From positions 1 to 28,257 of the IMG/VR virus record IMGVR_UViG_3300021594_000240: a stretch of DNA of 28,257 nucleotides; one strand, written 5' to 3'. The first letter of the stretch is position 1. Every line of letters begins with the position of its first letter. This document shows positions 1,061-23,054 of the stretch, one piece after another. This DNA is from a virus. The notes under the pieces are model-generated. The model was not told the DNA's origin, searched no databases, and was given only the letters and a program-made list of their open reading frames with translations. The translations under genes and the position numbers were made by a program.

Positions 1061-1489
1061 TTAAGACGGCCATTTTACGTTTCCATTAACTACGAATACT
1101 AACCCTAGAGAGTCTCCCTTGGATAGATAAACTTCGTTGATTCCTGTTTGCGCCCAACCCCACTCGTTAAATAAAGGTAGAACGCTGTGTCTTTTAATTA
1201 GAATAGCCCAATATGCTTCTGCTGGTGGCATGTCTTTGCATAGCTCCATCGAGGCATCTGGTCTGCCATTCACTCTACATACGACTGCATTTCCATATTT
1301 TTCGGTGCCTTCTATTTTATAATCCGCATTTTTTAATAGAACTAGGGCATTTGTATTGTCTGCCGCGGATATACAGCTCGAGCTCACCTGGTTGACGTTG
1401 TCATCTACATAAAGATTTATGCAGTTATCAGGCTTATTAACATAGAATAAGCCACCTACAATTAAAGCGATTCCCGCAAGAAACTTCAT
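1061..1489 (-). CDS. Exported protein resembling actinobacterial transcobalamin-like (DUF4430-type) proteins
   Basis: Residues 1-20 (MKFLAGIALIVGGLFYVNKP) form a short lysine-led hydrophobic segment, fitting a signal peptide or membrane anchor. The rest should lie outside the membrane. The remainder resembles secreted actinobacterial proteins with the order CV.A....AL..AGY.I.G...YG.AVVCR.NG.P...C..PP...YWA....W...G...L..GDSLG. Here this is seen as LVLLKNADYKIEG, AVVCRVNGRPD, CKDMPPAEAYWAI, GWAQTG and LSKGDSLGLVF. From memory, those relatives carry DUF4430, related to the C-terminal domain of transcobalamin, and often sit near putative cobalamin transport genes. Four cysteines could form two disulfides. 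The ATG overlaps the reductase stop as ATGA; an upstream TTG is possible, but the overlap start with GAGG ahead fits better. B12 binding is inference. Confidence 0.5.
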   Translation of the reverse strand: MKFLAGIALIVGGLFYVNKPDNCINLYVDDNVNQVSSSCISAADNTNALVLLKNADYKIEGTEKYGNAVVCRVNGRPDASMELCKDMPPAEAYWAILIKRHSVLPLFNEWGWAQTGINEVYLSKGDSLGLVFVVNGNVKWPS

Positions 1490-3513
1490 GCTTGTGGCAC
1501 CTCGCAATAATCATTTGAGCAATACTTCTCACCAATTGCGTCCGCGGCCATACCAGCATAGACATCTGTGAAGTCAATAGGCAGTAATTTGAAAGTGTAC
1601 TTTTCGTATTCTGCTTCTGTTATCTGTGTATATGGCATTTGCGGGTAAGTCTCGTTCCCCATGGGTAAGAAGGAAACGGTTTTGAGTTGCCCGTCAAACA
1701 TGTGTAGAACTGTTCCTACGGCGTCTTTTTCAGTATTTGAATTAAAGGATACTGTAACGCTAACGCTGTTGTCTGACCAATGGCGCTGTGCAGTTGCCGC
1801 CAGTGACATCTTTTCGTAGATTGATACATCTTTTTCTGACCTTAGAGCATCTGATTTAATAGGGAAGTAGACAACGCTAGTAGTCTTAGGAGATTCCGAG
1901 GCCTTTTCTACTTTATAACCTGACGCTTTAAATAAAGGTAGCATTGGGTCTTCGTTGCTGAAACGAATAGCTCGCAAGAAGTATTGGCCGCCAGGAGTCC
2001 AGTGAACTCCAGGAGATTCTCCCGCTAATATAGAAACCGTGCCAGAAGGCTTGACTGTGGTTGTTTTAATTGATTCTCGAATGCCAAGCCACTCAGAGTA
2101 AACGCGGTCATAGTCCTGAATGACGGAATAACCCTCGTCCATCCACTCACGTAATACGGGAAGCCCTACGCGGTCTGCAAAATTAGCCACACCAGACATA
2201 GAGGTTCCAATACGACGATTGCGTTGCATGATTGCGTTAGTTTCTTCCCAGTGGGTAGGCAACAACGTAACAGTCTTAGCGTATAGGTAAGCAAACTTTA
2301 AAGTACGAAGATAATCTTCTTTAGATTCATGGCGGTTGAGATAGGTCTCTACCAAAGTACAGCACTCAAAGGATTCCAAAGATTGCTCAGCGCATGGATT
2401 GTAGCCCGCGGCTCTCCAGTCCTTGTTGTTGGCAGGGTCAGCCAAACGACCGTACTTGCGAGTAACATCCATCCAGATAACACCAGGCTCACCGTTCAAA
2501 GAAATGCCTGAAACTATGTGTTCTAAATTAGAACCAACGGATACTTCTACAGAGTTGTTGGACATCCAGGCCCAGCCAGGAGCTGCGGCATCGTACGAGT
2601 TACGTTCAGGGTATTTAGCGGGGTTCTTTAAATTAAGAAACTCTTGGTCATCAAGTCTTCCCATCAACAGCTCAGCTGAACGTCTCACATTGCCAGAGAC
2701 TACGCAAACTCCAATTAGATTACCCAAATCGGCAATATCTACTCTTGTTAATTTAGAACCCGCCCTCTTTTTATTAAAGATGCGGCGAATATGATTGTGA
2801 AGCTTCTCAAGCGGCTCATGACCTGCAGCTGTGCCGCCAAAGGTTTTGATAGGGGTACCTGCTGGTCTTATCAGGGAGTAATCAAATACATAAATGGACT
2901 GTTCTGGTTTTAAGTAGGAGTTAATAAGCAGGCTAACTGACTCCACCCATCCCTCCCTGGTATCAGGAATCTGGATTGTTACCTCTGGGAGTTTTGGTTC
3001 ATAAATTAAAAAGTCTTTGTCCGCACCCTTGTCATCAAAGCCGACTCCAACGCCCAACATTGATGCTTCCATGAGGAAAGCAAATGGTTTAGCGGGGTCT
3101 AACTTAGTCATGCTAGAGGTAGACACGAAAGCACAGTTCTGTAAAGCCGCGGAGTTCTTGAGCTCATTCACCAGCGGAGTTCCCATAACCCACAGCCCAC
3201 GTCCAGGCGGGGTCCACTTTAAATTAAATAGGCGGTCAAACGCTTCTTTGGCGGAAGACTGCGCCTTGGCGTCATTCCATGGAAGGCGGCTAGTTTTAGC
3301 GTGGTCCTTCTGAAGTGAGTACATGCCCTCGATTACTCGTTGGCAAACATCTACCCAAGTCTCTTTGGTGCCGTCCTCTTTTAGTCGGGAGTAGGTGCGA
3401 AGGAAAGTAATCTCTCCTACCGAGTTACCTGCCGCATCTTTATAACCCCAAGGTACTTTCTTACTGCGATAGTCCTTTAGGAAATCTTCTGCTAGTCGGA
3501 AACTCAGTGCCAT
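1486..3513 (-). CDS. nrdJ: Adenosylcobalamin-dependent ribonucleoside-triphosphate reductase (class II)
   Basis: This 675-residue enzyme reduces ribonucleoside triphosphates to dNTPs using a radical generated from adenosylcobalamin. It matches the monomeric Lactobacillus leichmannii type. Visible are QNCAFVS with Cys127 (one of the reducing pair), NPCAEQSLES with radical Cys374 and Glu376, a partner cysteine at FECC (384/385), KPSGTVSILAGESPGVHW, and the C-terminal relay pair Cys665/Cys670 in YCSNDYC. Length is slightly below that of L. leichmannii (about 740). No class I small subunit, class III activase or NrdI is seen. The start has a good GGGAGA ribosome site eight bases ahead. It is translationally coupled to the exported protein downstream. 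It needs adenosylcobalamin, which the adenosyltransferase near 22.5-23.1 kb could supply. I see no B12 riboswitch in the 111 bases upstream. Confidence 0.95.
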   Translation of the reverse strand: MALSFRLAEDFLKDYRSKKVPWGYKDAAGNSVGEITFLRTYSRLKEDGTKETWVDVCQRVIEGMYSLQKDHAKTSRLPWNDAKAQSSAKEAFDRLFNLKWTPPGRGLWVMGTPLVNELKNSAALQNCAFVSTSSMTKLDPAKPFAFLMEASMLGVGVGFDDKGADKDFLIYEPKLPEVTIQIPDTREGWVESVSLLINSYLKPEQSIYVFDYSLIRPAGTPIKTFGGTAAGHEPLEKLHNHIRRIFNKKRAGSKLTRVDIADLGNLIGVCVVSGNVRRSAELLMGRLDDQEFLNLKNPAKYPERNSYDAAAPGWAWMSNNSVEVSVGSNLEHIVSGISLNGEPGVIWMDVTRKYGRLADPANNKDWRAAGYNPCAEQSLESFECCTLVETYLNRHESKEDYLRTLKFAYLYAKTVTLLPTHWEETNAIMQRNRRIGTSMSGVANFADRVGLPVLREWMDEGYSVIQDYDRVYSEWLGIRESIKTTTVKPSGTVSILAGESPGVHWTPGGQYFLRAIRFSNEDPMLPLFKASGYKVEKASESPKTTSVVYFPIKSDALRSEKDVSIYEKMSLAATAQRHWSDNSVSVTVSFNSNTEKDAVGTVLHMFDGQLKTVSFLPMGNETYPQMPYTQITEAEYEKYTFKLLPIDFTDVYAGMAADAIGEKYCSNDYCEVPQA

Positions 3514-3624
3514 ATTTTTTTCTCCCTTATCTAAAAAGTTAATTCTACTAGTGCGTTACAGTGCTTGGGAAACTATGCTGTTTCAGGGTCTTGCATGGTT
3601 CTCTTATATGATAATAAGAAAGCC

Positions 3625-5091
3625 TTACTCTTCGATGGCACCCTTGATTATTTGAGTGGTTTGCTCCTCATTTAACCCGCCATTTGGCAACTCTCTAAGT
3701 GCTTGAGCCTTGTCTCCGAAGATAGAACTTAGCACACCAGCGCTGCCTTGTCGCTCTACCGTCATGCGAATAAACTCACGAGAATCGTCCAATTCTTTTG
3801 TTGTTTTGATTAATTTAAACAGGCGGTCTATCTCCTGAGAAACGTTAGGGTCAGCATATCCACCATTCATTTCTTCAGCAAAACGCATAAAAGCAACTCT
3901 TTGGCCCTGCATTTCTATAACAGCATTAATTAAAGCCTTAAGTTGTTCTTTACTCTTTACCTCTACTGGTAACTTAAAAGCACACATAGATTGAGGTTTA
4001 AAAGCGGGGCAGTTAGCGGCTACAAAACAGGTGTCACATGCCCTAAGTGAAGTGCTATGGGATGAAACTGTGGTGACATCTTTAATGACGCCATCGGCAT
4101 CAATTTCACTCTTTGTATCAAATCCAAAGACGGGAAGATTGGCGTATTCGTCAGCATTTCGTGGTTCAAGTTTCCGTGTATGAATACCCTTATTATCATA
4201 TACGGCAGGTGGGGTTTCCCCACTTTGCTCCACTTCTCTCCCCTCACTATTATCATATAACAGCGGGTCATCTGGGCTATTGGTCATCTTGTTCATCCTT
4301 ATCTCGAACTGCTCATAAGACCACACCGCTAACTTACAGACTTCCTGCGGGTCATCCTCGATTATCTTATCAATGTCCAAGCCAGCCTTTTCGTAGATTG
4401 CCTTGTACCTTGGGCGTGCTTGTTCCTTCATCTTCTTTGGATAACGAACTAGTCTAGTGCCATCCCAAATGATTGTTTCACCGTGCATCATCGGTGAAAG
4501 CCACGATAAGGTGCTGGCACTTTCAAATATAATAGAACGCAGGTTGTCAGGTTTGGCACACCCTAATGCATGCCACCTGGTCCCTTCCCGCTTGCTGTGT
4601 AGGCGGGTAGCGCTGGCAAGTCTGCTATCTATCTCAATAGCGTCTCCTGGGATAGCGATGTCCAAATAGTAGTCAACTAGCCTTTGAAGCCCATTTAAAT
4701 CGGTCTGTGGTTGCCATACAGGAATGAACTTACCTGGTGGTAGCTCGGACCATACCTTCTGTCTGTGGCTCTCTACCCAAGCTGGGTCAATGGTGGGGCT
4801 GTTAATCTCAAATACGGTATTGAGCCTATCTATATTAACGGCTACGAAATGTTCGTACCCTGCGGCAAACTCTTCGAGCTCATCAGCTGACAGCTTCAGG
4901 GTTTTAGGTAAGCCTGGGTGTACATAAATATAGAAATCTTTATTAAAGTAATTTTCTAATAGATACTCTTTGGTCTTAGGTAGACCGCGGCACACCAGGC
5001 GATGGTAGCTGACGCCAACGTGGTTGGCGGTTGTCTCTTCAAGAATTACTCTATTTGAAGGTACCTCAGCGCCTAAATAGACAATTTTCAC
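3625..5091 (-). CDS. Unknown phage protein: possible TGT/DpdA-like barrel plus four-cysteine zinc site
   Basis: The first 270 residues have a pattern I associate with phage proteins related to tRNA-guanine transglycosylase: MKIVYLGAEVPSNRVILEE and VSYHRL near the start, YIYVHPG at 54-60, KFIPVWQP at 121-128, then TRWHALGCAKPDNL and STLSWLSPMMHGETIIWDG at 171-211. TGT-like enzymes swap guanine for a 7-deazaguanine, in tRNA or (DpdA) in DNA; I cannot place the catalytic aspartate with certainty. A linker follows, then a cysteine cluster at 352, 355, 361 and 370 (CDTC, C, C), and a helical C-terminus. It begins with GTG, sharing GTGA with the stop of the zinc-ribbon gene before it. No deazaguanine synthesis genes are in the window. 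Family assignment is tentative; a conserved actinophage protein of unknown function is the safe reading. Confidence 0.4.
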   Translation of the reverse strand: MKIVYLGAEVPSNRVILEETTANHVGVSYHRLVCRGLPKTKEYLLENYFNKDFYIYVHPGLPKTLKLSADELEEFAAGYEHFVAVNIDRLNTVFEINSPTIDPAWVESHRQKVWSELPPGKFIPVWQPQTDLNGLQRLVDYYLDIAIPGDAIEIDSRLASATRLHSKREGTRWHALGCAKPDNLRSIIFESASTLSWLSPMMHGETIIWDGTRLVRYPKKMKEQARPRYKAIYEKAGLDIDKIIEDDPQEVCKLAVWSYEQFEIRMNKMTNSPDDPLLYDNSEGREVEQSGETPPAVYDNKGIHTRKLEPRNADEYANLPVFGFDTKSEIDADGVIKDVTTVSSHSTSLRACDTCFVAANCPAFKPQSMCAFKLPVEVKSKEQLKALINAVIEMQGQRVAFMRFAEEMNGGYADPNVSQEIDRLFKLIKTTKELDDSREFIRMTVERQGSAGVLSSIFGDKAQALRELPNGGLNEEQTTQIIKGAIEE

Positions 5092-5201
5092 TTACGCTTG
5101 CTCCAGGTGATTCCACACTTGGAGCATAAATATGCTTCTCCGCTAACGTAATCTAATACATTACCATCGCATCCACGAGGGCAGGTTATCTTTTCACTCA
5201 T
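5088..5201 (-). CDS. Small zinc-ribbon protein, 37 aa
   Basis: The 37-residue product has two cysteine pairs, CPRGC at 7-11 and CSKC at 26-29, separated by a beta-hairpin-like stretch. It ends WSKRK and is the classic minimal zinc ribbon. Its ATG overlaps the stop of the upstream HAD-like gene (ATGA), and its stop overlaps the GTG start of the downstream gene, so it is embedded in a coupled translational chain. The role is unknown; such ribbons usually bind nucleic acid or proteins. Confidence 0.75.
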   Translation of the reverse strand: MSEKITCPRGCDGNVLDYVSGEAYLCSKCGITWSKRK

Positions 5202-5656
5202 AGCCGTGGGTCCTCCTTGAAGGCATCCTGTTGTTTTTCAATCTCTTCTACGATTTCAGACCAGGCTTTGACACCCTTACGGCTGTCAGGCCTGAACTCT
5301 TCTCTTATGTACAACGGCTGTAAAAATACCAAAGTCGTCATACCAATTTCAAGTAACTGGGTCACTAATTCTGGGTCGGATGTTATTACATACTCTACAG
5401 GGCCCTGAGACCTTACCCACTCAACCTGTCTTAGTTTTGGGTTATCGCCAATGGAAGGAACTTTTTTGTAATCAATTAAATCATCAAAGTTATTGATACG
5501 CTGTTGGCGTAGCCAATGGTCGTCTTTATCTACGTCTTCACATAGAACAAGAACGCGATGTTTTTCTTTTAAACTTCTGTACAGCGCCATACCATTTGGG
5601 ATGGGGGCGCTTTTATCATTTCTTAGTACGCCGTCTAAAAATACTAATATTGCCAC
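5198..5656 (-). CDS. Degenerate HAD-like protein
   Basis: The N-terminus ILVFLDGVLR lines up with HAD motif I, normally DxDGVL. The nucleophile position (residue 6) is Phe, while the second aspartate (Asp8) is kept. Further family-like features are a PIPNGMALYRSL helix, the strand RVLVLCED (motif II region), WLRQQRINNFDDLI, and later YVITSDPELVTQLLEIGMTTLVFLQP. The loss of the nucleophile suggests it is not a phosphatase; a structural or nucleotide-binding role is possible. It starts with GTG and is coupled to the zinc-ribbon gene downstream. Similar proteins occur in other actinophages, from memory. Fold confidence is moderate and function is unknown. Confidence 0.6.
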   Translation of the reverse strand: MAILVFLDGVLRNDKSAPIPNGMALYRSLKEKHRVLVLCEDVDKDDHWLRQQRINNFDDLIDYKKVPSIGDNPKLRQVEWVRSQGPVEYVITSDPELVTQLLEIGMTTLVFLQPLYIREEFRPDSRKGVKAWSEIVEEIEKQQDAFKEDPRL

Positions 5657-5668
5657 AGATAGACCCTA

Positions 5669-6598
5669 TCACTTGTAGTGTGTAGCCGCTCTCCTTATCA
5701 GAGTGCTAGTCGATGGCAATTCCATGCCATACGTTTGTGCTTCAAACTCTTTTTTGGTTTTTGCTGAAATTTCTTTTAGTTGCTTTAACGCTTGTACAAC
5801 TCCAGATGCTTTTCCAGCTTGCCAACGATAATTATATACATCAGCGTATCCTTGTCCAGAGGCGCTAAATGCGTATTTGCGGCCATGGTGGATATCTTCA
5901 AATAAAGCAGCGCCCTGTTCTACCGCAAGCTTTAATGCAGCTTCCGCATTGCGCCTTGCAACATCAGTTGTTGCTGCCCCTACTGTTGTTAAGGCGTCAG
6001 AATATCTAGACAAAATGTCAACTGCCATAGACTTATCCTGTTCTACCTTTCTATTCCATATTTGATTCTGCGGAACTCCGCGAACCTCTGGCATCACAGT
6101 CCAATCATCGTTTGTCAAGCTATAGGCTGCATACGGTTTTATGGAACGGATGTCAGACTGTACATTAACATAGAATGTCAATTCAAATACATCTAGAAAA
6201 TTTGATGTCGCCTGGTGGAGGGTTTGGAATCCCTCGTTAAACATCTGGGAAATCTCTTTATCGCTAAGCCCTTTGTATTTAGGATTAGACTGTCTAAACA
6301 TTAAATAGTTAATTCCAATTAAACAATCAAGGTCCGCTGGTTTGCGAGCTGCTGACCACTGGTAGCTTACAGCTGAGCCAGCTAGCCAAACATGTGCGTA
6401 GGCCTCTGGGTTATAAAAGCTCTGCTTTAAATGGTCAAATAGGATTCTTAAAATTAAAGAACGGATATGAGGAACAATCTTGCCGTTCCTAAACAACCTA
6501 GGGTCAAGCCCAGCTCCAGGGGTGCTGAAGTATGAGGTTTCTGACGGCGTTAGGGCAACTGGTTGTGCTTGCCGTACAAGCGCGTCGTAATAACTCAT
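5669..6598 (-). CDS. Pol-beta-type nucleotidyltransferase
   Basis: The signature of the superfamily is clear: LAGSAVSYQW (Gly74-Ser75) followed at the right distance by ADLDCLIGI, with Asp89 and Asp91 as the metal-binding pair. The family moves nucleotides onto RNA, proteins or small molecules. The substrate here cannot be read from sequence. A glycine- and aromatic-rich middle (HHGRKYAFSASGQGYADVYNYRW) and a lysine-rich helical C-terminus follow. The start is ATG, twelve bases before the next leftward gene begins to end. Neighbours are unknown genes, so context does not define the role. tRNA end repair, antibiotic-type transfer and toxin-type transfer all remain open. Confidence 0.7.
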   Translation of the reverse strand: MSYYDALVRQAQPVALTPSETSYFSTPGAGLDPRLFRNGKIVPHIRSLILRILFDHLKQSFYNPEAYAHVWLAGSAVSYQWSAARKPADLDCLIGINYLMFRQSNPKYKGLSDKEISQMFNEGFQTLHQATSNFLDVFELTFYVNVQSDIRSIKPYAAYSLTNDDWTVMPEVRGVPQNQIWNRKVEQDKSMAVDILSRYSDALTTVGAATTDVARRNAEAALKLAVEQGAALFEDIHHGRKYAFSASGQGYADVYNYRWQAGKASGVVQALKQLKEISAKTKKEFEAQTYGMELPSTSTLIRRAATHYK

Positions 6599-6605
6599 TT
6601 AGGTA

Positions 6606-6824
6606 TTATAGTTCTTTTTCCCGCCGCTCTTTGTGCATAACATCCGTATCGAGGTTGAATTTGCTTGGATGTTCCGCTTTATCTGTCTTTATTGGTGTCA
6701 TATAGCCACATTGACTATGAGCATTAATAAATTGTTGTGCCCACATCATGACCATTGACTCATTCTCTTCAACTTCTGCTTGAAAAGATGCCACGCATAC
6801 GCATGTCATTTCTACGAACGCCAT
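6606..6824 (-). CDS. Hypothetical protein, 72 aa
   Basis: Not recognised. The product begins MAFVEMTCVCVASFQ, with two close cysteines, and continues with a helix (VEENESMVMMWAQQFINAHSQCGY) and a charged tail. The ATG is preceded by a purine-rich AAGGGGG ribosome site. A gap of 61 bases separates it from the gene before; it contains an AT-rich stretch with a possible -10 box (TATACT), but no convincing -35. Confidence 0.6.
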   Translation of the reverse strand: MAFVEMTCVCVASFQAEVEENESMVMMWAQQFINAHSQCGYMTPIKTDKAEHPSKFNLDTDVMHKERREKEL

Positions 6825-6885
6825 AGGACCCGCCCCCTTGTAGTGTATTTACAGTATACTCCTGCGGTACAGGCTAAATACGGGC

Positions 6886-7170
6886 TTACTGTTCGTCAGA
6901 AATCAGCGGTTTGATTAAATCTAGGACCTGATAGGCAATTGCCGACTGGTTCATGCTGTCCACAATGTCCTGACACCCGTGTTTGATGTCGTCTAGGGTT
7001 GCCTGACGGTCAACGGTTAGGGTGGTTGCTAGGTCTGCTGTAGCGTACCAATCACCAGTAGGCTTTTTTACAATAATAAAGGCAGTGATACCGCCGTTTT
7101 CTTCTGTTGGCTGGTTTTCTGCAATACCTTCTGGAATAACTACTGCGTCTTCTACTACTTCTTCGCTCAT
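6886..7170 (-). CDS. Hypothetical protein, 94 aa, acidic N-terminus
   Basis: Not recognised. Residues 1-27 are acidic and probably disordered. Residues 28-94 look like a small alpha/beta domain, with strand ITAFIIVKKPTGDWYATAD, then TLDDIKHGCQDIVDSMNQ and a final amphipathic helix AYQVLDLIKPLI. The ATG overlaps the stop of the cysteine-rich gene upstream (ATGA). Conserved genes of this size are common in the same neighbourhood of actinophages, but I cannot name a function. Confidence 0.65.
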   Translation of the reverse strand: MSEEVVEDAVVIPEGIAENQPTEENGGITAFIIVKKPTGDWYATADLATTLTVDRQATLDDIKHGCQDIVDSMNQSAIAYQVLDLIKPLISDEQ

Positions 7171-7727: not shown

Positions 7728-7758
7728 GTGGTCAGCCTACCACACACTTTCAAATTGT

Positions 7759-9469: not shown

Positions 9470-9472
9470 CTT

Positions 9473-10012: not shown

Positions 10013-10035
10013 ACGTCAATGATACGCCTGTAAAA

Positions 10036-11357: not shown

Positions 11358-11432
11358 TACAAGTTCCTTTCATCCCGTCTTGCACTTCGACTTAAGCGTA
11401 TCATAAAGATTCGGTAAGTAAATGTAAAGTAA

Positions 11433-11512: not shown

Positions 11513-11514
11513 GG

Positions 11515-11559
11515 TTGTTGTACAACAATGGACATCTATGTACAACCATGGACAACTAT
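11515..11559. repeat. Tandem 20-bp direct repeat with palindromic core (candidate operator)
   Basis: Two copies of TGTACAACAATGGACATCTA-like sequence stand head to tail with a 20-base period. The second copy (TGTACAACCATGGACAACTA) differs at three positions. The first copy overlaps a perfect 14-bp palindrome, TTGTTGTACAACAA (11515-11528). Another TTGTACAA palindrome lies at 11462-11469. The second copy runs over the stop codon of the Hsp20 gene. The position just upstream of the candidate promoter suggests a protein-binding site. Confidence 0.6.
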
Positions 11560-12056
11560 TCTATTTCAATAGTTTTAGCTTTCTTAGCCTCTGGGATAAT
11601 GCGCTCCAGGGCTATGGTTAGAAAACCGTCCTCCAGCTTTGCTCCTTTGACAACCACGTCGTCTGATACAGCGAAGCGTTGTAAGAAAGTGCGGCCAGCG
11701 ATGCCTTTGTAGGCATAGGTTGCGGAGTCATCATCAGCTCTTTCTCCGCTGACTGATATGACATTTTCTTTGTACTCTATATTAATTTCTGACCTTTTAA
11801 AGCCCGCAACGGCAATCTGAATCTCAGCTTTGTCATCGGGTAGGGTCACGATGTTGTAAGGCGGGTATGTTGATTTAACCCTGAGGTCCTCTAACTGTCT
11901 AAACATATCTAAATGTCTATCAAAACCAAAGGTCCACGGTTGCAACATACTATTTAATGTTGCAAATGGGTCCTGGGTTTGAGGAAAGATTTCCTTGTTA
12001 TAGTTTATTTTTGGGGCGTCGTTTCCGCGCCATTGAATTGGGTAGCCTGAAGCCAT
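11556..12056 (-). CDS. Small heat-shock protein, Hsp20/alpha-crystallin family
   Basis: A 166-residue chaperone that holds unfolding proteins as large oligomers. The alpha-crystallin domain occupies about residues 65-155: YPPYNIVTLPDDKAEIQIAVAGF, NIEYKENVISVSGER, YKGIAGRTFLQRFAVSD and GAKLEDGFLTIALER. The N-terminal FGFDRHLDMFRQL and the C-terminal IEIE (I-x-I type anchor) are typical of phage and bacterial IbpA-like proteins. It has its own strong AAAGGAG ribosome site and is preceded by a terminator and an AT-rich gap, so it is probably transcribed separately. Hsp20 genes are frequent in T4-like cyanophages; here it sits near another protein-quality gene, the HslV-like hydrolase. Confidence 0.92.
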   Translation of the reverse strand: MASGYPIQWRGNDAPKINYNKEIFPQTQDPFATLNSMLQPWTFGFDRHLDMFRQLEDLRVKSTYPPYNIVTLPDDKAEIQIAVAGFKRSEINIEYKENVISVSGERADDDSATYAYKGIAGRTFLQRFAVSDDVVVKGAKLEDGFLTIALERIIPEAKKAKTIEIE

Positions 12057-12877: not shown

Positions 12878-12928
12878 GTGTACCTCGGTTTACGAATAGT
12901 GGGGCTCCCGTAAGTACAATTATGAAGT

Positions 12929-13150
12929 CTAAATTAGATTTGGTCTGTCTAAAGGGGTGGGCGCCCTGCCGTAGGTACCGCAGCTGCTGCACTCCATGTC
13001 CAAGAAATACTGGGCTATCTCATAGTCTTGAAAGGACGCTTTAATATTCCAAATACTGGATTGGCAAATAGGGCATTCATGAAGGACCTCGTCTGCGTAG
13101 TCCATAGACCCGCTGTAATCAGGCTTTAGTTCTCTAATGTTTCTTGTCAC
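12929..13150 (-). CDS. Zinc-ribbon protein, about 73 aa
   Basis: Two cysteine pairs, CPIC and CSSC, separated by about 23 residues in the middle of the protein define a zinc ribbon. An acidic segment (DYSGSMDYADEVLHE) comes before them and a proline-rich tail after. I favour the GTG at 13150, which has GGAA nine bases ahead, over a TTG five codons earlier without a ribosome site. With either start the gene overlaps the upstream gene. Function unknown. Confidence 0.6.
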   Translation of the reverse strand: MTRNIRELKPDYSGSMDYADEVLHECPICQSSIWNIKASFQDYEIAQYFLDMECSSCGTYGRAPTPLDRPNLI

Positions 13151-13355
13151 AGGCGATTGTTCCAAAATTAGATAGGACGTTATTGGCTATCTCTATGTAA
13201 ATATGAGCGTTCACTATAAGGTCCTCTGGATGGTGTAGCTCGCCTGCTTTTCCTGGCCAATTACTTTTTAAATAATCATGTAAACCAGGGGTCAGTTTGC
13301 TCATGAACTCATCGATTGTAAGGTATCCATGAGCTCTTAAATGTTTATTATCCAT
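13134..13355 (-). CDS. Hypothetical protein, 73 aa
   Basis: Not recognised. The product is mostly helical (LTIDEFMSKLTPGLHDYLKSN, EDLIVNAHIYIEIANNVLS), with a tryptophan/proline turn between the helices. It overlaps the end of the HslV-like gene by 8 bases and the start of the zinc-ribbon gene, so it belongs to the same coupled chain. Confidence 0.6.
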   Translation of the reverse strand: MDNKHLRAHGYLTIDEFMSKLTPGLHDYLKSNWPGKAGELHHPEDLIVNAHIYIEIANNVLSNFGTIACDKKH

Positions 13356-15798: not shown

Positions 15799-15810
15799 AC
15801 GGATACCGTA

Positions 15811-16128
15811 TCACACGTCTTCAGTAAGTATCCACTCCTCAAGTGACTTGCCCTGTTTTTTAGCTTTACGCTTAAGCGCGTTACGCTCACGATGCGACAT
15901 GCCGCCCCATATGCCGTGCTGTTCTTCCATAGCCTCTGCATAGAGCAAACAATCTTTACGCACGGGACACTCAGGTAACCCGTCTCGTCCAAAGCATACG
16001 CCTTTGGATACGGTTGCAATTTTTTTATACTTAGCTTTATCTCTGGGAGGAAACCAGAGCTCTGTGTCCATCCCCCGACACTTCGCTTGATGGCGCCAGC
16101 CCTCTAAGTGGCCGATGTCTTCGAACAA
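15811..16128 (-). CDS. WhiB-family iron-sulfur transcriptional regulator, atypical spacing
   Basis: Actinobacterial WhiB proteins bind a 4Fe-4S cluster with four cysteines and contact the main sigma factor. Here the cysteines are Cys17 (AKCRGMDTELWFPP), Cys45, Cys54 and Cys60 (CPVRKDCLLYA), and the HGIWGGMSHRER turn and basic tail are intact. The second and third cysteines are usually two residues apart; here eight residues lie between them (CFGRDGLPEC), an insertion in the cluster loop. The start is TTG with GGAG five bases ahead, overlapping the nuclease gene before it. Phage WhiB proteins in mycobacteria can modify host WhiB control; a similar role is inferred. This gene is strong evidence for an actinobacterial host. 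Confidence 0.9.
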   Translation of the reverse strand: MFEDIGHLEGWRHQAKCRGMDTELWFPPRDKAKYKKIATVSKGVCFGRDGLPECPVRKDCLLYAEAMEEQHGIWGGMSHRERNALKRKAKKQGKSLEEWILTEDV

Positions 16129-17487: not shown

Positions 17488-17825
17488 TAAATTTTCCCTA
17501 TGATTGTGGTTGGGTTATATCCGCCTGTATCTATCTGTCGTGCTGGTTGAGCTGGCCCTGCTCCTGCTTGACCAGTCGTTACTCCACGCACTCCAGTACC
17601 CGATTGTACTATTGGATACCCGCAATCGTAACAACGCTTTCTAGACTCAGGGGAACTACCGCATCCAGGGCAACGTTCTGCTGTAGGGGTTATCTGTTGG
17701 GAAGGTGGATACTGCGGTTGCTGTGGTTGTGCATAGGTTGCTGGCTGAGGCTGTACAACACCTTGTCTTTGAGGTTGCTGAGGTGCTGGAGCTCCTAGCT
17801 TTTGCGCCCACCAAGAACTACTCAT
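17487..17825 (-). CDS. Pro/Gln-rich protein with zinc ribbon
   Basis: The protein begins MSSSWWAQKLGAP and continues as a Pro/Gln-rich linker, then a zinc ribbon (CPGCG and CYDCG with an Arg/Lys loop between), and a Gly/Pro-rich tail with a final NPTTIIGKI. The start is the ATG at 17825; a TTG one codon earlier is less likely. It overlaps the gene before by 8 bases and RecA by one. Similar proteins sit near RecA in other actinophages, from memory. Its role is unknown; an adaptor that binds nucleic acid via the ribbon is possible. Confidence 0.65.
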   Translation of the reverse strand: MSSSWWAQKLGAPAPQQPQRQGVVQPQPATYAQPQQPQYPPSQQITPTAERCPGCGSSPESRKRCYDCGYPIVQSGTGVRGVTTGQAGAGPAQPARQIDTGGYNPTTIIGKI

Positions 17826-18300
17826 CAAAACCCTCCAACTTTTTAAACTCTAAACTGGTATTAGAAACATTCCCTGGTTGTATTAAACCAAGATTTACTC
17901 CTGAAGACAAGCCCCCTAAAAGGGAAGAAAAAGCAACCATTTTGTACATCATGTGCATCATGTCTTGCTCGCGTTCCATTTCCCTAACATTATCTGGGTC
18001 TCGTTTTTTAATCTCATCAAGTTGAACGCTGGTTATCACGTCAGCTGTCATCTCAGATACCATGTCTATAAATGGAAGTAGGTATTCTATTTGGTCTAAT
18101 CTCTTTTCGCTTTCATTAAACTCATGTTCATCTCCTTCTTCACTTACAGGAGTCATGCCTAATATTTTTGCAATAGTGTTTGGTTCTTCTGCTAAATCTG
18201 TATCATATAAAAACCAACGCATCAGGGTACCTATAGGTATCTCGTTATTAATAGTTTCAAATTCTATATTTAAGGGCTTCTTCTTTTTAAACGGCCACAT
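17818..18300 (-). CDS. Hypothetical acidic helical protein between Pol I and RecA
   Basis: Starts MWPFKKKKPLNIEFETINN at the ATG that shares one base with the polymerase stop (TAATG); an upstream alternative inside the polymerase gene is unlikely. After the basic N-terminus the protein is acidic and helical, with methionine-rich stretches (REMEREQDMMHMMYKMVAF) and a glycine-rich turn (SSLLGGLSSGVNLGLI). I do not know the family. The tight link to polymerase and RecA suggests a replication accessory, which is inference. Confidence 0.65.
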   Translation of the reverse strand: MWPFKKKKPLNIEFETINNEIPIGTLMRWFLYDTDLAEEPNTIAKILGMTPVSEEGDEHEFNESEKRLDQIEYLLPFIDMVSEMTADVITSVQLDEIKKRDPDNVREMEREQDMMHMMYKMVAFSSLLGGLSSGVNLGLIQPGNVSNTSLEFKKLEGFDE

Positions 18301-20273
18301 TATTTTGCCTCGCCCCATCTCTGAACTGTTGTAATGTCAGCAATAAGAGGAACCTCAAGAAGCTGTATACCTTCCATAGCTTCCCTAATTGCCGCTGCTG
18401 TCTCTTCAGCAAGACTGTTAGGTGTCAAGGTAACCAACTCATCATGCACGGTTAACAATATGCTGGCTTCCTTTGGAATAAGATTATGTGCTCTAATCAT
18501 AGCAAGCTTCATGATGTCTGCAGCAGAGCCTTGAATTCGTGTGTTGAACGCCTGTCTTTCTGCACTACCACGCTTTATAAAGTCGCTAGAGTTAATGTCT
18601 GGAATGTACCTTTTGCGACCCATGATGGTGGTCACGTACTTTTTAACCTTGGTAGCTCCTACGACCTTTATTCTATAGGAGTTAACAGCACTAAACTTAG
18701 AAGCAAAGTCTCCTAAAAGTGTTCTAGCCTCTGTGACTGAGCAACCAATAGACCTGGCAATCTTATCGGGGCCTACACCATACGCCATAGAAAGAACAAG
18801 GACCTTGCCTGCCTGACGATTAACCCCCATAACATCTCCTACAGTTGTATAGATGTCTTGACCTTCTAGGTAGTTTTTCATCATGGTCTTGTCTTTAGAC
18901 ATAGACGCAATGATACGAGGTTCAATCTGAGAGTAGTCAGCAACCACTAACTTATAGCCCTCTGGGGCATAAAATAGATTACGAATAGCTTTGCCGTTGT
19001 CGCTAGCAGACGGATTAGGTATGTTCTGTAGGTTTGGATTACGGCTAGAAAAACGGCCAGTCTCAGCCCCATGTTGAACAAAGTCAGCGTGCACGCGGCC
19101 ACTAACTAAAAGACTTTCTTTGTATTCTACTTTAGACTTGCCGCTGACAGTTCGTACAACATCGCCTCCAAGGTATGGCACAACGTATGTGCTAAGCAAT
19201 TTATTTAGGTCAGCGTACTCAAGCAAAGCATGAACCATCGGGTCTTTCTCACGATAGGGCTCTAAAGCTTCTGCTGATACTGAGTAGTCCATGTAGTCAA
19301 GGTCCTTGCCTTGCATCTCTTTTTCAAGACCTTTGTTGGTAAGAATTTTTGGTTTAAGACCTCTACCACCTGAAGACTTTGGGCTATACAAAAGGTATTG
19401 TTTTTCTTGATTAGAATTAATATTAAATACTCGACCTGCAACCTTGTATATCTGAGCGCGTGCCTTCTCAATGTCCTCCTCTAACCGTGTGTGCAGGGTG
19501 GTTAGGGCATCTGTATCAATAGGTGCGCCAGTAAGCTTCATGTGGCACAGAACCTCTAGAACATCCATCTCTAACTTCATGATGTTCTCTACGTCGGCTT
19601 CTTTAATTTTATCTCGTACCACCTTCCAAAGCATGAAGGTGTACTTAGCATCTAAGTATGCGTACTTAGCAACAGTACTAAAGGCGTGAATTTCTACTTG
19701 AGCTCCAACACCTTTTTCCATTTTGTAACCAAGCTCTCGCTCTAGACAATCATCAAGACCGCATCGGTTTTTATTACGGTTGTCATATATAAATGAGCCA
19801 ACCATGGTGTCGAAATAGGGAGCGGTAGGTATGGTTTTGTCAAAATACTTTGCTACTGAGCAAAGGTCAAAAACTAAATTGTGACCAATCTTTAACTTGT
19901 CACTAAAAAATAAAGGTTTTAAAGCAGCAAAGACTTCCGCTGGGTGTAGTTGTTCAGGAGCTTCGCCGAAAGTTTTAACAGCTTTGCGCTTGTCCCTAGA
20001 GTAATCGCTTTCCCTAGCCTGAAGGCCAGCTTGTACGCGCTTTTCTCCTTGCCCTGTAAGTGGGAAAACTTCAGATATAAATTCACCATGTGGGTGGCCC
20101 ATCGGGATAACATCCCCACGACCATAAGTCGCAAGACTAAGCCATAGTACTTGATTAACAACTGGAACTCCTCTTCTATCTCCTACTGTTTCTACGTCAA
20201 ATGCAAATGCGTCTTGTGTTAGGTAGTAATCAACGAGTTCTTTTAGTTGCTCAGTTGTCGTAATAATATTCAA
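18300..20273 (-). CDS. polA: DNA polymerase I (family A) with 3'-5' exonuclease
   Basis: A 657-residue replicative-type phage Pol I lacking the 5'-nuclease domain. Proofreading domain: FAFDVETVGD (Asp26, Glu28), KIGHNLVFDL and YAYLDAKYTF. Polymerase domain: TGRFSSRNPNLQNIP, motif A VVADYSQIEPR (Asp446), O-helix RQAGKVLVLSMAYG, and motif C VHDELV (about 609-614). The residue matching E. coli Phe762 is Leu494, a class known in viral polymerases. The start is TTG with GAGG eight bases ahead; no better ATG is near. An imperfect hairpin stands in the 81-base leader. It is preceded by the candidate ssDNA-binding protein gene and followed without a gap by an accessory gene and RecA. Confidence 0.96.
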   Translation of the reverse strand: MNIITTTEQLKELVDYYLTQDAFAFDVETVGDRRGVPVVNQVLWLSLATYGRGDVIPMGHPHGEFISEVFPLTGQGEKRVQAGLQARESDYSRDKRKAVKTFGEAPEQLHPAEVFAALKPLFFSDKLKIGHNLVFDLCSVAKYFDKTIPTAPYFDTMVGSFIYDNRNKNRCGLDDCLERELGYKMEKGVGAQVEIHAFSTVAKYAYLDAKYTFMLWKVVRDKIKEADVENIMKLEMDVLEVLCHMKLTGAPIDTDALTTLHTRLEEDIEKARAQIYKVAGRVFNINSNQEKQYLLYSPKSSGGRGLKPKILTNKGLEKEMQGKDLDYMDYSVSAEALEPYREKDPMVHALLEYADLNKLLSTYVVPYLGGDVVRTVSGKSKVEYKESLLVSGRVHADFVQHGAETGRFSSRNPNLQNIPNPSASDNGKAIRNLFYAPEGYKLVVADYSQIEPRIIASMSKDKTMMKNYLEGQDIYTTVGDVMGVNRQAGKVLVLSMAYGVGPDKIARSIGCSVTEARTLLGDFASKFSAVNSYRIKVVGATKVKKYVTTIMGRKRYIPDINSSDFIKRGSAERQAFNTRIQGSAADIMKLAMIRAHNLIPKEASILLTVHDELVTLTPNSLAEETAAAIREAMEGIQLLEVPLIADITTVQRWGEAK

Positions 20274-20299
20274 ATGATTACCTCGATTAATGTAGGTGT

Positions 20300-20343
20300 C
20301 TGGGAGCCAGCGACGAAAGGGGATTAAGTTTACTGGCCCCCAG
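20300..20343 (-). other. Imperfect stem-loop in the leader of the polymerase gene
   Basis: Two 9-base arms (CTGGGGGCC and GGCTCCCAG on the minus strand) pair with one G-T wobble around a 26-base loop. It lies in the 81-base gap between the candidate SSB and the polymerase. It may act as a weak terminator that lowers polymerase relative to SSB, or as a translational control element. There is no clear T-tract. Confidence 0.35.
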
Positions 20344-20354
20344 AACTCTAGTGA

Positions 20355-21017
20355 TTAAAGAAGAGAGTTTGCAATCTCTTCTAGTTCAGCCCATGTGTGT
20401 TCTTTGATTACAGAGCGTTCGAATGGCTTGACTTGTGCCACGCCTTCTTCGGCCATCTTCTCATCAATACCCCAGTCTTCCATGAGGTCACGAGGCTTTA
20501 CTGCGTTGAGGTGATACACAGTTTGTTGCATTTTGCCTGTACGGCTAATAGCCCAGTAGTTCTTAGTCAAAGGTCCTTGTGGGGAAAACTCTGCTGCGTA
20601 CAATGTCTTGTACAAACGTGGGCTTGCAATAAGCATCTGGCGAACAACGCCTGAAGGAGTAATCACTGCAATAGTGAACGCTCTTTTATCTTCTGGCTTG
20701 CTACCAAGCTTGGTGCATAGTGGGTCGTTAGGCCCAAGTGAAACATACGAACGCTTGCCAACAGTTTTCTGCTGTAGGAAGTGTTGCTTGTAGATTGCAA
20801 ATGGACCATTCTGGTCAATGAACTTAACAATTGTGAACTCACCGTCAACAAATTTAAATTCTGTTGGGTAGTCACCTGCGGTTGTTGACAGCTTTTCTGC
20901 TGCATCCCAACCAGACTGCACAGCATTTGTTGTTGCTGCTGCAGGACGTTCTTCGATGGTTGCGGTGTCGAACTCATCGTTTTGTGGAAGATATTCTTCC
21001 GTACGGTTTACTGCCAT
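20355..21017 (-). CDS. Probable phage single-stranded DNA-binding protein
   Basis: A 220-residue protein with a polar N-terminus, a beta-rich central domain (EFKFVDGEFTIVKFIDQNGPFAIY, KRSYVSLG, RAFTIAVITPSGVVRQML, KNYWAISRTGKMQQTVYHLN) and an acidic/helical end. The order resembles actinophage proteins proposed to bind ssDNA in the OB-fold manner. It lies directly ahead of Pol I, where SSB genes are often found. It does not match bacterial SSB by signature, so this rests on context plus composition. The ATG has AAAGGAA eleven bases ahead. Confidence 0.6.
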   Translation of the reverse strand: MAVNRTEEYLPQNDEFDTATIEERPAAATTNAVQSGWDAAEKLSTTAGDYPTEFKFVDGEFTIVKFIDQNGPFAIYKQHFLQQKTVGKRSYVSLGPNDPLCTKLGSKPEDKRAFTIAVITPSGVVRQMLIASPRLYKTLYAAEFSPQGPLTKNYWAISRTGKMQQTVYHLNAVKPRDLMEDWGIDEKMAEEGVAQVKPFERSVIKEHTWAELEEIANSLL

Positions 21018-21024
21018 AGTTTTT

Positions 21025-21498
21025 TTATTCCTTTGTTTCAGTTGTTTTAGAGTCTTCGACTTGGATATTCTTCCAAGCCTCAGCGATTGCGTTAGTCAAT
21101 TGCTGATTAGGCCACTGTATTCGCTTCACGTGCAAAACGCCAGCGGTCTTAAACAATTCTACCACGCAATCTATCTGAGCCTTTGAATATAGCCTACGAC
21201 CCTTGTGGTCTTCTCCATTTACATTCTTCTTTGTAGGAAGTCTGTAAGGTGATGGCGGTAGGTATCCTGTTTTTATCCATTGACGGATAGTAATTACGGG
21301 ACGTCCCAACGCTTGTGCGAGAGCGCCAATGGTGTAGAACTCCATGTCCTTGCCATTAGGCAGAGTCTTTTTGTAGGACTTTGATTCCCACGTGTCATCG
21401 ACTTCTACCTCGGGAGCTTTTGGTTCCCTGCGCTTTCGTTTACTGCCTGGATAATAACTATCCAAGTCAGAAAACATTTTATCTATTTCATCTGTCAT
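21025..21498 (-). CDS. MerR-like helix-turn-helix protein
   Basis: The centre of the protein reads FYTIGALAQALGRPVITIRQ, followed by WIKTGYLPPSPYRLP and RLYSKAQIDCVVELF. This is the winged helix of MerR/excisionase-type DNA binders. Residues 1-50 are basic and acidic mixed and probably flexible; the C-terminus is a charged helix without the long dimer coil of full MerR regulators. It lies 7 bases before the candidate SSB gene and one base after the small membrane gene. It may control phage promoters such as the one near 22.1 kb or recognise an origin; neither is shown. Confidence 0.75.
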   Translation of the reverse strand: MTDEIDKMFSDLDSYYPGSKRKRREPKAPEVEVDDTWESKSYKKTLPNGKDMEFYTIGALAQALGRPVITIRQWIKTGYLPPSPYRLPTKKNVNGEDHKGRRLYSKAQIDCVVELFKTAGVLHVKRIQWPNQQLTNAIAEAWKNIQVEDSKTTETKE

Positions 21499-21499
21499 A

Positions 21500-21628
21500 T
21501 TAAAGCAGCTTAAGTAGTATGTAAATCTGAAGGCACAAAACCATTATTGGTACAACAGTTCTTATAAGTTCCATTGTGTGGTTGTACTCGTCAAGTTTAC
21601 GTTCTAACCTATTTCTAGTTGTTGACAT
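21500..21628 (-). CDS. Small single-pass membrane protein, 42 aa
   Basis: The product has a basic, polar N-terminal half (TTRNRLERKLDEYNHTMELI) and one hydrophobic span at residues 23-42 (RTVVPIMVLCLQIYILLKLL) ending at the C-terminus. It should be a tail-anchored protein. Its ATG shares one base with the stop of the gene before (TAATG), and its stop is one base from the next start. Possible roles include a membrane anchor for replication or a small lysis or exclusion protein; nothing selects among them. Confidence 0.65.
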   Translation of the reverse strand: MSTTRNRLERKLDEYNHTMELIRTVVPIMVLCLQIYILLKLL

Positions 21629-22038
21629 TATTTCCCAACGATAAATGCATAGGTAACCTTTGAAGGAAACATAGTGTCAATGTCTTCTTCAGTAAGGTAG
21701 CCTTCATAAAAAGCAGCCATGATTGCAGCCTCATCAATTTGAGGAACCATCTTAACGCATTTATCTTTTAGACCTTTTTTAGTAAGAATGGTTTCTGCAA
21801 GGTCCATGTCTAAATTTTTAGAAACACGACGTTGCTTCATAATTTGAAGGTCGTCTTCTTCTGATGTATCTGTAGGAACGCTTAGTACAATATGACCGCG
21901 TTCATCTGTTGAACCAAACTCATCAATAGTTTTTGTAAGACGAGTTTTAAGTTCTGTCTGTCGCTTTGATAAAGTTTCTACTTCATCTTTTAAAGCAACG
22001 TACTGCTTGATATAAGCACGTACTGAGGTGACGTCCAT
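21628..22038 (-). CDS. Hypothetical coiled-coil protein, 136 aa
   Basis: Not recognised by family. Residues 1-45 form a probable coiled coil (RAYIKQYVALKDEVETLSKR, QTELKTRLTKTIDEF). A beta segment GHIVLSVPTDTS follows, then MKQRRVSKNLDMDLAETILTKKGL and an acidic helix (AAFYEGYLTEEDIDTMF) with a final beta strand. The ATG has AGGGG six bases ahead. It is the first gene after a candidate promoter and leads the operon running through MerR-like, SSB and Pol I. Confidence 0.65.
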   Translation of the reverse strand: MDVTSVRAYIKQYVALKDEVETLSKRQTELKTRLTKTIDEFGSTDERGHIVLSVPTDTSEEDDLQIMKQRRVSKNLDMDLAETILTKKGLKDKCVKMVPQIDEAAIMAAFYEGYLTEEDIDTMFPSKVTYAFIVGK

Positions 22039-22072
22039 GTAATCCCCTTTGGTTGTTGTTGTTTACATAGAC

Positions 22073-22102
22073 AACCTAATACAGGGGTGGGATACCTGTC
22101 AA
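22073..22102 (-). promoter_or_regulatory. Candidate promoter for the SSB-polymerase operon
   Basis: On the minus strand there is a perfect -35 box TTGACA (22102-22097), overlapping the stop codon of the 51-residue gene. An 18-base spacer leads to TAGGTT (22078-22073), which fits the actinobacterial TANNNT -10. A TATTAG box with a 15-base spacer is an alternative. The transcript would start about 30 bases ahead of the coiled-coil protein gene. Confidence 0.45.
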
Positions 22103-22254
22103 CTTATCTTTTTACGAGCCTCCGCGGCTGTATAACTGCGGAACCCAGTCTTACGTGGGTTCATGCTGCCAGGCTTCTTGTATCCAGAACCCTTGGGCAT
22201 TGTCTCCTGACGCCACTTAAGAGCAGCGGCAACCTTATCGTGGTGTTTTCCCAT
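22099..22254 (-). CDS. Small basic protein, 51 aa
   Basis: The product MGKHHDKVAAALKWRQETMP continues with a Lys/Gly/Pro-rich segment (GSGYKKPGSMNPRKTGFRSY) and a short helix. It is highly basic and likely binds nucleic acid or is a small virion or ribosome-associated protein; I know no family. The ATG directly follows the stop of the ribbon-helix-helix gene without a spare base, so the two are probably translated together. Confidence 0.6.
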   Translation of the reverse strand: MGKHHDKVAAALKWRQETMPKGSGYKKPGSMNPRKTGFRSYTAAEARKKIS

Positions 22255-22404
22255 TTAATTATCTTCTTTAATATAGTTTTCAAGGGCTTCGATAATAATG
22301 CTGGTCACTGTAACCTTCTCAGCTGCAGCTTTCTTTTGGACCGCTGTCCACAGCTGGTCTGATACGCGGATAGTACGCGTAGGGGTTTTAGGTGCGTTAG
22401 GCAT
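22255..22404 (-). CDS. Ribbon-helix-helix DNA-binding protein, 49 aa
   Basis: The sequence PTRTIRVSDQLWTAVQKKAA then EKVTVTSIIIEALENYIKED is a textbook ribbon-helix-helix (Arc/CopG-like) domain: a beta strand with alternating residues, helix 1, turn, helix 2. Such dimers bind short palindromes and often repress their own genes. A palindrome, TATAGT-N6-ACTATA, lies just ahead of the start. AAGG directly abuts the ATG, which is too close for a normal ribosome site, so the message may be leaderless or nearly so, as is common in actinobacteria. Confidence 0.8.
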   Translation of the reverse strand: MPNAPKTPTRTIRVSDQLWTAVQKKAAAEKVTVTSIIIEALENYIKEDN

Positions 22405-22407
22405 CCT

Positions 22408-22425
22408 TATAGTTTATTTACTATA
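22408..22425. promoter_or_regulatory. Palindromic candidate operator ahead of the ribbon-helix-helix gene
   Basis: TATAGT and ACTATA form a perfect 6-bp inverted repeat around a TTATTT centre, ending four bases before the start codon. On the minus strand TATAGT also looks like a -10 box, with a start site expected only a few bases before the ATG. Binding of the ribbon-helix-helix product here would block its own transcription; this is inferred from position. Confidence 0.4.
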
Positions 22426-22446
22426 TGGCTGTATGTACTGCTAAAG

Positions 22447-22519
22447 CTGGCAGACTAGGGGTCGAACCTAGAGTCTCCTGGTCCAGAGCCAGGCGTGTTG
22501 CCAGTTACACCATCTGCCA
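22447..22519 (-). tRNA. tRNA-Gln (anticodon CUG)
   Basis: A full cloverleaf of 73 bases can be drawn: acceptor TGGCAGA/TCTGCCA, D-stem GTGT/ACAC, anticodon stem CCTGG/CCAGG with loop CTCTGGA (anticodon CTG), T-stem CTAGG/CCTAG with loop TTCGACC, discriminator G. CCA is not encoded, so a host enzyme must add it. The gene lies over the last 21 codons and stop of the adenosyltransferase gene on the same strand. Confidence 0.95.
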
Positions 22520-23054
22520 ATAGTTTTACTTGCGGCTCCCACAGTATATCTTTACCACCATTCAGGTACCTAGCTAGGACAAACAGCAGGTCAGATAGCC
22601 TGTTGAGGTATTTAGCTATAAGAGGGTTGGTCTCCCTTTGGTTTACAGAATCCCAAACACAACGCTCTGCCCTACGAACTATTGTTCTAGATAGGTGTAG
22701 GTAGGAAGAAGCCTTGCTCCCTGAAGGTAGTACAAAAGATTCCAGTGGCTTTAACTGGTCGTTGTACAAATCTATATTAGTTTCAAGATAAGTAATGTGA
22801 GCGTCTGTAACCGACACTTTTGGCGAAGCAAGGTCGGCACCCAAATCAAACAAATCGTTCTGTATATTCTTTAACAAAGTGTAGACGTCTTCTTTATCTA
22901 CATAACACATGGCAATACCAATAGATGAGTTTGCTTCATCGACTGTGCCTATAGCATTAAAGATTAAATCTTCTTTTGGATGACGGTCATTGCCTGCGAG
23001 CGCAGACGTGCCTGCATCACCAGTCTTTGTATATATCCTAGTTAATCTAACCAC
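22455..23054 (-). CDS. PduO-type ATP:cob(I)alamin adenosyltransferase
   Basis: The enzyme transfers adenosyl from ATP to cob(I)alamin and yields adenosylcobalamin, the cofactor of the class II reductase near the other end of this window. Family motifs are clear: VRLTRIYTKTGDAGTSALAG (ATP loop), FNAIGTVDEANSSIGIA, FDLGADLASP, SGSKASSYLHLSRTIVRRAE and YLNRLSDLLFVLARY. The conserved fold ends near Trp171. The GTG start gives the canonical family N-terminus and stands one base after the discriminator base of tRNA-Gly, so no ribosome site exists outside that tRNA. Residues 179-199 and the TAG stop are read from tRNA-Gln sequence. This would be a nearly leaderless message after tRNA 3' processing, and stop-less after 5' processing of tRNA-Gln. 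Confidence 0.93.
   Translation of the reverse strand: MVRLTRIYTKTGDAGTSALAGNDRHPKEDLIFNAIGTVDEANSSIGIAMCYVDKEDVYTLLKNIQNDLFDLGADLASPKVSVTDAHITYLETNIDLYNDQLKPLESFVLPSGSKASSYLHLSRTIVRRAERCVWDSVNQRETNPLIAKYLNRLSDLLFVLARYLNGGKDILWEPQVKLLADGVTGNTPGSGPGDSRFDP

Follow-up and report, generated by a model that had tools for sequence, protein, structure and literature searches.

The DNA analysed here, called the window below, is an IMG/VR virus record (IMGVR_UViG_3300021594_000240) of 28,257 bases, and it probably carries a phage vitamin B12 module through which B12 would be captured, adenosylated and spent on deoxynucleoside triphosphates (dNTPs). The two enzymes of this module are a reductase, NrdJ, and an adenosyltransferase, PduO, and the candidates for capture are two small genes behind nrdJ, which I call X and Y.

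902..944, minus strand: pronounced hairpin behind Y, interpreted as a terminator (minimum free energy -30.2 kcal/mol over 56 nucleotides, z -6.67)
945..1073, minus strand: Y, 42 residues, with a hydrophobic middle and the C-terminus VDIWRSLTGH
1061..1489, minus strand: X, 142 residues, with a hydrophobic N-terminal segment and a predicted fold like the beta domain of transcobalamin
1486..3513, minus strand: nrdJ, a monomeric class II (adenosylcobalamin-dependent) ribonucleoside-triphosphate reductase of 675 residues, assigned from profiles, a PDB alignment and its cysteines
22455..23054, minus strand: pduO, a PduO-type ATP:cob(I)alamin adenosyltransferase of 199 residues with a GTG start, assigned from PF01923, TIGR00636 and PDB matches

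An initial annotation of this DNA had reported a complete class II reductase at 1486-3513 with cysteines 127, 374, 665 and 670, and a full PduO-type adenosyltransferase at 22455-23054, lying in the same direction about 19 kb apart. Both genes are real and the description holds, with a measured gap of 18,941 nucleotides on one strand, but the partners X and Y had been overlooked. NrdJ matches PHROG 367 (E 4.5e-142), scores 366.7 bits against NCBIfam TIGR02505 (RTPR), which places it in that family (curated cut-off 340.05), and lies above the Pfam cut-offs of both PF17975 and PF21995. Its sole PDB sequence match at E <= 0.001 is the L. leichmannii RTPR 1l1l. All four cysteines are present, C665 and C670 outside the printed 1l1l alignment, and a fifth, C385, omitted from the earlier description, stands opposite the second finger-loop cysteine when the protein is aligned to 1l1l. 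By analogy with the L. leichmannii enzyme, I presume that C127 and C385 are the catalytic pair, C374 the thiyl residue, and C665 and C670 the C-terminal pair. NrdJ is thus best read, from its sequence, as a putative adenosylcobalamin-dependent reductase.

PduO scores 189.6 bits against PF01923 (cut-off 24), covering the whole profile (1-171 of 171), and 172.5 bits against TIGR00636 (cut-off 108.45), and so belongs to both families. The nearest solved sequences, 2g2d and 6wgs, are corrinoid adenosyltransferases. Its N-terminal YTKTGD loop and C-terminal NRLSDL motif, which I take to be of functional importance, are invariant across 18 phage sequences, and no PHROG family was matched by the window protein. 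Between two window-like lineages, the ratio of nonsynonymous to synonymous substitution (dN/dS) is 0.099/1.095 for PduO (codons 1-178), or about 0.09, 0.119/0.707 for X and 0.048/0.690 for NrdJ. PduO would be expected to adenosylate cob(I)alamin, and might in this way make the phage independent of the adenosyltransferase supplied by its host, as the initial annotation had proposed.

In viral records, nrdJ and pduO are linked beyond chance. A search of viral contigs gave 14 close relatives of the window PduO, some 99% and the others 82-84% identical to it, which form two groups, and five of these records also contain NrdJ, at a spacing of 18.8-19.2 kb; eight of the other nine are no longer than 18 kb, and the end of the ninth (37.9 kb) precedes the place expected for NrdJ from that spacing. 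An alignment-based search of viral contigs confirmed 278 relatives; the best 80 were used, 66 of them new. NrdJ was sought in the 45 of these 66 whose records reach 13.8 kb, the 21 shorter ones being dropped, and the class II enzyme is present in 26 of the 45 (in one of them only its C-terminal part, at the edge of the contig), compared with one of 12 control contigs of at least that size (Fisher p 0.0028) and one of 31 overall; the control consists of 31 contigs picked by one arbitrary 15-mer, with host and habitat unmatched. These counts use phrog_367 because PF02867 is weak for this type of NrdJ and does not list that of the window; as a test for ribonucleotide reductases, PF02867 matched none of the 19 NrdJ-less PduO records and one of 30 control contigs. 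Where a record holds both genes (n=31), they are on the same strand in every case and no more than 650 bp apart in 18. A class I small subunit was found in none of the 45 PduO-bearing records, whereas an equal frequency of the adenosyltransferase in phages with class I reductases would have spoken against the reading of the initial annotation. That annotation had also proposed to check whether PduO occurs only alongside nrdJ, and it does not: the linkage exceeds chance, but 19 of the 45 records show no NrdJ. Several of these end near PduO; one (G131), however, is 60 kb long and has a terminase match. Likewise, the two genes are found together in further viral records, but most close NrdJ relatives lack PduO. 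NrdJ has at least 600 relatives in viral contigs, and among the best 80 together with the lake phage DSL-LC01 (81 records) only two carry PduO. One PduO-negative record (L022) has the window's own NrdJ and ends ahead of the place expected for PduO.

The phage collection adds some observations on these two genes. DSL-LC01 (OQ999401.1, 28313-30142) has the closest NrdJ in that collection, and a gene annotated as a cobalamin biosynthesis protein, with no PF01923 match. NrdA-like records number 4,410. PduO matches occur in 15 records, of which one was inspected: CAKLQH020000002.1 (Acinetobacter phage MD-2021a) has btuB, trp genes and baeSR around the match and resembles a bacterial chromosome.

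Within the window, nrdJ, X and Y look like one transcription unit, with pduO elsewhere, since their frames overlap and the hairpin follows Y. The ATG of X and the stop codon of nrdJ share four nucleotides (GCATGA), and Y and the 3' end of X share 13; a terminator pattern scanner did not list the 902..944 hairpin on this strand. A search of viral contigs for X, with a seed set taken from loci beside nrdJ or PduO, found 207 relatives, of which the best 80 were used with flanks of up to 10 kb. PduO is present in 66 of these loci, NrdJ in 37, both in 23, and none lacks both. The nearest nrdJ or PduO partner is on the same strand as X in 80 of 80 and within 300 nucleotides in 79. As they contain 48 distinct X proteins, the 80 loci are not 80 independent cases. 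In 78 of the 80, X is followed on its own strand by a Y motif with the stop codon immediately after it, the two exceptions being L279 and L291; of 142 matches to this motif in all loci examined, one is away from X, at a contig edge beside PduO.

The commonest gene order is nrdJ-X-Y-pduO. The window's lineage has PduO in a tRNA cluster instead, and the window-like loci L228-L232 scored NrdJ only, with PduO 18.8-18.9 kb off in the records of L229-L231. The four-nucleotide overlap of nrdJ and X recurs in 15 of the 37 nrdJ-X loci (five from the window's own group), the order is altered to nrdJ-pduO-X in L124, and the X-Y-PduO trio also stands behind a very divergent NrdJ (L143). On the NrdJ tree, the X and PduO labels each change seven times, L172 and L250 being left out where unknown; the records of the short loci L172, L176 and L179 do carry PduO. 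L124 also encodes a phage transfer-messenger RNA near its B12 genes (12893-13189, tag ANTSAYALAA), and L128 has one too.

What X resembles is apparent from its predicted structure. The AlphaFold model, built with 32 aligned sequences, has a mean predicted local distance difference test score (pLDDT) of 84.9 and a predicted template modelling score (pTM) of 0.78. When the PDB was searched with Foldseek, the first 16 matches were transcobalamin, haptocorrin or the bacterial protein 3u7z, all at probability 1.00, the best E (6.2e-4) being the only one below 0.001. VIA-align gave Z scores of 10.2-11.5 for 15 entries, namely 14 vertebrate B12 carriers and 3u7z, which I take to be a DUF4430 protein; the next entry scored 6.5. 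The model therefore has the fold of the transcobalamin beta domain, and the alpha domain of the vertebrate carriers is missing from this one-domain protein. The N-termini are strongly hydrophobic, the mean over 15 residues reaching 1.86 or more in 30 of 32 sequences, the scans of the other two having stopped at an early cysteine. Sixteen columns of the 32-row alignment are invariant, including four cysteines and a tryptophan that follows a near-invariant tyrosine, a Tyr-Trp pair that I presume to match a motif of the vertebrate carriers. Together with the linkage above and the host riboswitch described below, the model suggests that X may bind B12.

The host of this phage is probably a freshwater actinobacterium. 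A regulator gene in the window indicates Actinomycetota:

15811..16128, minus strand: WhiB-family regulator (PF02467, E 4.2e-17)

In a quick tree of 124 PduO rows, made without bootstrap, 44 phage rows cluster with 20 Actinomycetota rows (Shimodaira-Hasegawa-like approximate likelihood ratio test, SH-aLRT, 96), and 15 phage rows are sister to 11 that include Candidatus Planktophila versatilis and one metagenome-assembled genome titled Bifidobacterium breve (joint support 83). The window PduO is a long branch within the larger group. A single-protein search of genome contigs with it gave no confirmed relative; an alignment search found at least 587, of which the best 80 were used. PF02867 is present in all 11 genomes whose PduO lies near the phage group, as a single copy in ten; the reductase of P. 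versatilis is of the B12-dependent dimeric type, and one of the two copies in G174 is class I. In the likely host family, Nanopelagicaceae, a class I small subunit exceeds the cut-off in six of 121 genomes, many of which may be incomplete. For four acI strains, passages of one study report that the B12 pathway is missing and that energy-coupling factor (ECF) modules have cobalamin riboswitches ahead of them (PMC5301498).

X itself has homologues in 10 of the 121 Nanopelagicaceae genomes (loci L396-L405 and L406-L410), all placed by the X profile, with the sequence pattern alone finding five of the ten. In every one of the ten loci, a cobalamin riboswitch lies 79-110 nucleotides upstream on the same strand (nine of the AdoCbl and one of the Cobalamin family). 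Thus, host X behaves as a B12-regulated gene. Its neighbours in the two loci listed are unrelated to B12.

From these results I propose the following course of infection. The host would be a freshwater actinobacterium that is unable to make B12 and mostly has a B12-dependent reductase only. Because such a host imports its B12 and mostly relies on that reductase, active B12 would limit DNA synthesis during infection, when the demand for dNTPs would rise in a cell dependent on import. X, anchored or exported by means of its N-terminus, would hold cobalamin at the cell surface with its transcobalamin-beta-like domain and probably pass it to the host's own uptake system, and Y might be its small membrane partner. 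PduO would then adenosylate the captured cobalamin, and NrdJ would use the adenosylcobalamin to supply dNTPs for phage replication. That X and Y are a virus-encoded membrane device for capturing B12, which together with PduO and NrdJ turns the infected cell into a B12 sink, is a tentative proposal, to which I would give a little under an even chance.

Several results count against such a module. The cut-offs of Pfam, NCBIfam and PHROG all lie above the scores of X, and sequence-profile searches of the PDB with X did not find transcobalamin, the matches in both cases being at chance level; what identifies X is therefore its fold, its linkage and the riboswitch. The Pfam transcobalamin-like C-terminal domain (PF14478, as I take its accession to be) is absent from the X matches, whether listed to E 1 or to E 10. 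A search of 50,697 phage records gave no match to X, and therefore no cultured case was seen. It was not seen in 111 of the 121 Nanopelagicaceae genomes, P. versatilis included; the Y motif was not found in the ten host X loci, and the riboswitch was found neither in the window nor in seven phage module loci. Since the X seeds came from loci adjacent to nrdJ or PduO, close relatives were favoured in the linkage counts. PduO is missing from 14 of the 80 X loci, the partner in L279 (PduO) lies 6.1 kb from X, the Y motif was not found in L279, L291 and L124, and NrdJ is not visible in the 19 PduO records given above. Finally, X and PduO change together in five of five supported independent pairs on the NrdJ tree, which is not significant (p 0.0625).

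The lack of any sequence match to B12 binders would also be expected if X bound no B12 at all and were an operon passenger, the transcobalamin-beta fold being common to bacterial surface proteins with other ligands. Its single domain of 142 residues, where the full carriers in the PDB have about 380-415, fits this as well, as does the title of the bacterial fold match 3u7z, a putative metal-binding protein. However, it leaves the cobalamin riboswitch ahead of host X in ten of ten loci to be explained, where the genes nearby, in the two loci listed, have otherwise nothing to do with B12, and also the B12 gene within 300 nucleotides of X in 79 of 80 phage loci; I consider a non-binding X rather improbable. 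A different doubt concerns who benefits. PduO, with X and Y, might mainly feed the host's own B12-dependent reductase, or whichever class II reductase the cell contains, the phage nrdJ being optional. As PduO occurs without a visible phage nrdJ, supply to the host class II enzyme has to be taken seriously, either in place of the phage enzyme or in addition to it. X-Y-PduO stands without detected phage NrdJ in the terminase-match records G130 and G131 (the matched range of the terminase holds stop codons), the P. versatilis reductase is class II, and the class I small subunit is confined to six of 121 genomes in the family. Set against this are the presence of NrdJ in 26 of 45 PduO records and the overlap of the nrdJ stop with the X start, which the window shares with 15 of 37 nrdJ-X loci, and as the main purpose of these genes, feeding the host enzyme seems unlikely, if worth keeping in mind.

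There is also the very remote chance that PduO is host contamination, a bacterial gene in a viral bin, or an open reading frame decaying into the tRNA cluster, which consists of the following genes:

22446..22519, minus strand: tRNA-Gln(CTG), overlapping the 3' end of pduO
23055..23128, minus strand: tRNA-Gly(GCC), directly upstream of pduO (Rfam end 23056)
23135..23208, minus strand: tRNA-Asn(GTT)

The 3' end of pduO runs over tRNA-Gln, and no leader stands between its start and the adjoining tRNA-Gly, as decay might produce; of the 15 PduO records in the phage collection, the single one inspected looks like part of a bacterial chromosome. Yet the same arrangement occurs in 14 of 14 viral relatives from two lineages at 82-99% identity, PduO has a dN/dS of about 0.09 and is surrounded by phage replication genes, and the records G001 and G003 have a terminase match alongside it. 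A phage B12 module remains the reading that I prefer.

The tRNA setting suggests, as a side reading, that tRNA processing sets PduO expression in the window's lineage. One base separates the GTG start from the Rfam end of tRNA-Gly (23056), and the final 21 codons, stop codon included, lie within the tRNA-Gln gene; the Pfam match stops at residue 164, ahead of that portion. An RNase Z cut after tRNA-Gly would give a near-leaderless mRNA starting C-GUG, and an RNase P cut at tRNA-Gln would take off the PduO stop codon. The GTG adjoins tRNA-Gly in the window and in all 14 close viral relatives, and tRNA-Gln lies over the 3' end in 13 of the 14, the other (L007) being cut off there. In the distant PduO locus L130, an ATG (715) is flush with the end of a tRNA-Asn (641-714); the other PduO loci printed have different sequence ahead of the start codon.

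Other window genes belong to phage replication and nucleotide metabolism, namely DNA polymerase A, RecA, a DnaB-type helicase, an SNF2-type helicase, a Toprim/zinc-ribbon primase-like protein and a deoxynucleotide monophosphate kinase. Immediately upstream of nrdJ (3625-5091, minus strand) is a match to PHROG 887, queuine tRNA-ribosyltransferase. The minus strand also encodes an HSP20 protein (11556-12056) and a proteasome-subunit-like protein (PF00227, 13348-13905).

Few organisms make B12, and on the reading preferred here such viruses would see to their own provision with this scarce vitamin. If it is true, they would encode every stage, from capturing the vitamin and activating the cofactor to the enzyme that consumes it, coupling viral replication to vitamin traffic, and a transcobalamin-like protein would exist outside animals. 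It would also suggest, for the host protein behind the riboswitch, which matched no family profile here, a function that can be tested. Furthermore, it would qualify the claim, in the portion of PMC10547690 available, that phages with this reductase need hosts that make B12 or that assimilate and modify a precursor.

How does this module compare with known systems? Phage class II reductases are already well known, as passages of two papers attest (PMC6459318, PMC10547690). The window NrdJ shares its family, by profile and cysteines, with the monomeric class II enzymes (RTPR/NrdJm) of L. leichmannii (1l1l) and of a Thermus phage, the latter demonstrated, in the text available, to be a B12-dependent nucleoside triphosphate (NTP) reductase (PMC6459318). 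For the Thermus virus, that text invokes the host's own B12 pathway, and the word adenosyltransferase is absent from its main part (PMC6459318).

The window PduO is a full-length match to the PduO-type adenosyltransferases (PF01923, TIGR00636; 2g2d/6wgs) with their conserved motifs; unlike them, it is phage-encoded, has no PHROG family and, in this lineage, is flush with tRNA genes. The label cobA, which is met with in viral annotations, presumably denotes the CobA/BtuR type, a family other than PduO. Passages of a review report cobA, cobO and cobS in cyanophage genomes beside remarks on class II reductases (PMC10452541), a wastewater virome lists viral cobA, explained there as a cob(I)alamin adenosyltransferase, with cobS/cobT, in the part available (PMC11183165), and viral CobS appears in an extract of a third paper (PMC8438041). 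As annotation, then, the combination of a viral adenosyltransferase with a class II reductase has already been published (PMC11183165, PMC10452541). The initial annotation had known of no characterised phage example of the pairing, which in its bare form had been mentioned; in open PMC texts, the scope of this search to the exclusion of subscription literature, no phage transcobalamin-like protein, Y or such a module was found. The printed genes share with the window the adenosyltransferase labels and the tie to class II reductases, and in the passages available they are annotation labels, with X, Y or a gene module not described. X, finally, is likened to the beta domain of transcobalamin, haptocorrin and intrinsic factor, and to 3u7z, by its predicted fold (Z 10.2-11.5). 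It differs from the transcobalamin-type carriers in having no alpha domain, only 12-20% identity in those rows and no matching Pfam profile, and it has features of its own in the N-terminal hydrophobic segment and the four invariant cysteines.

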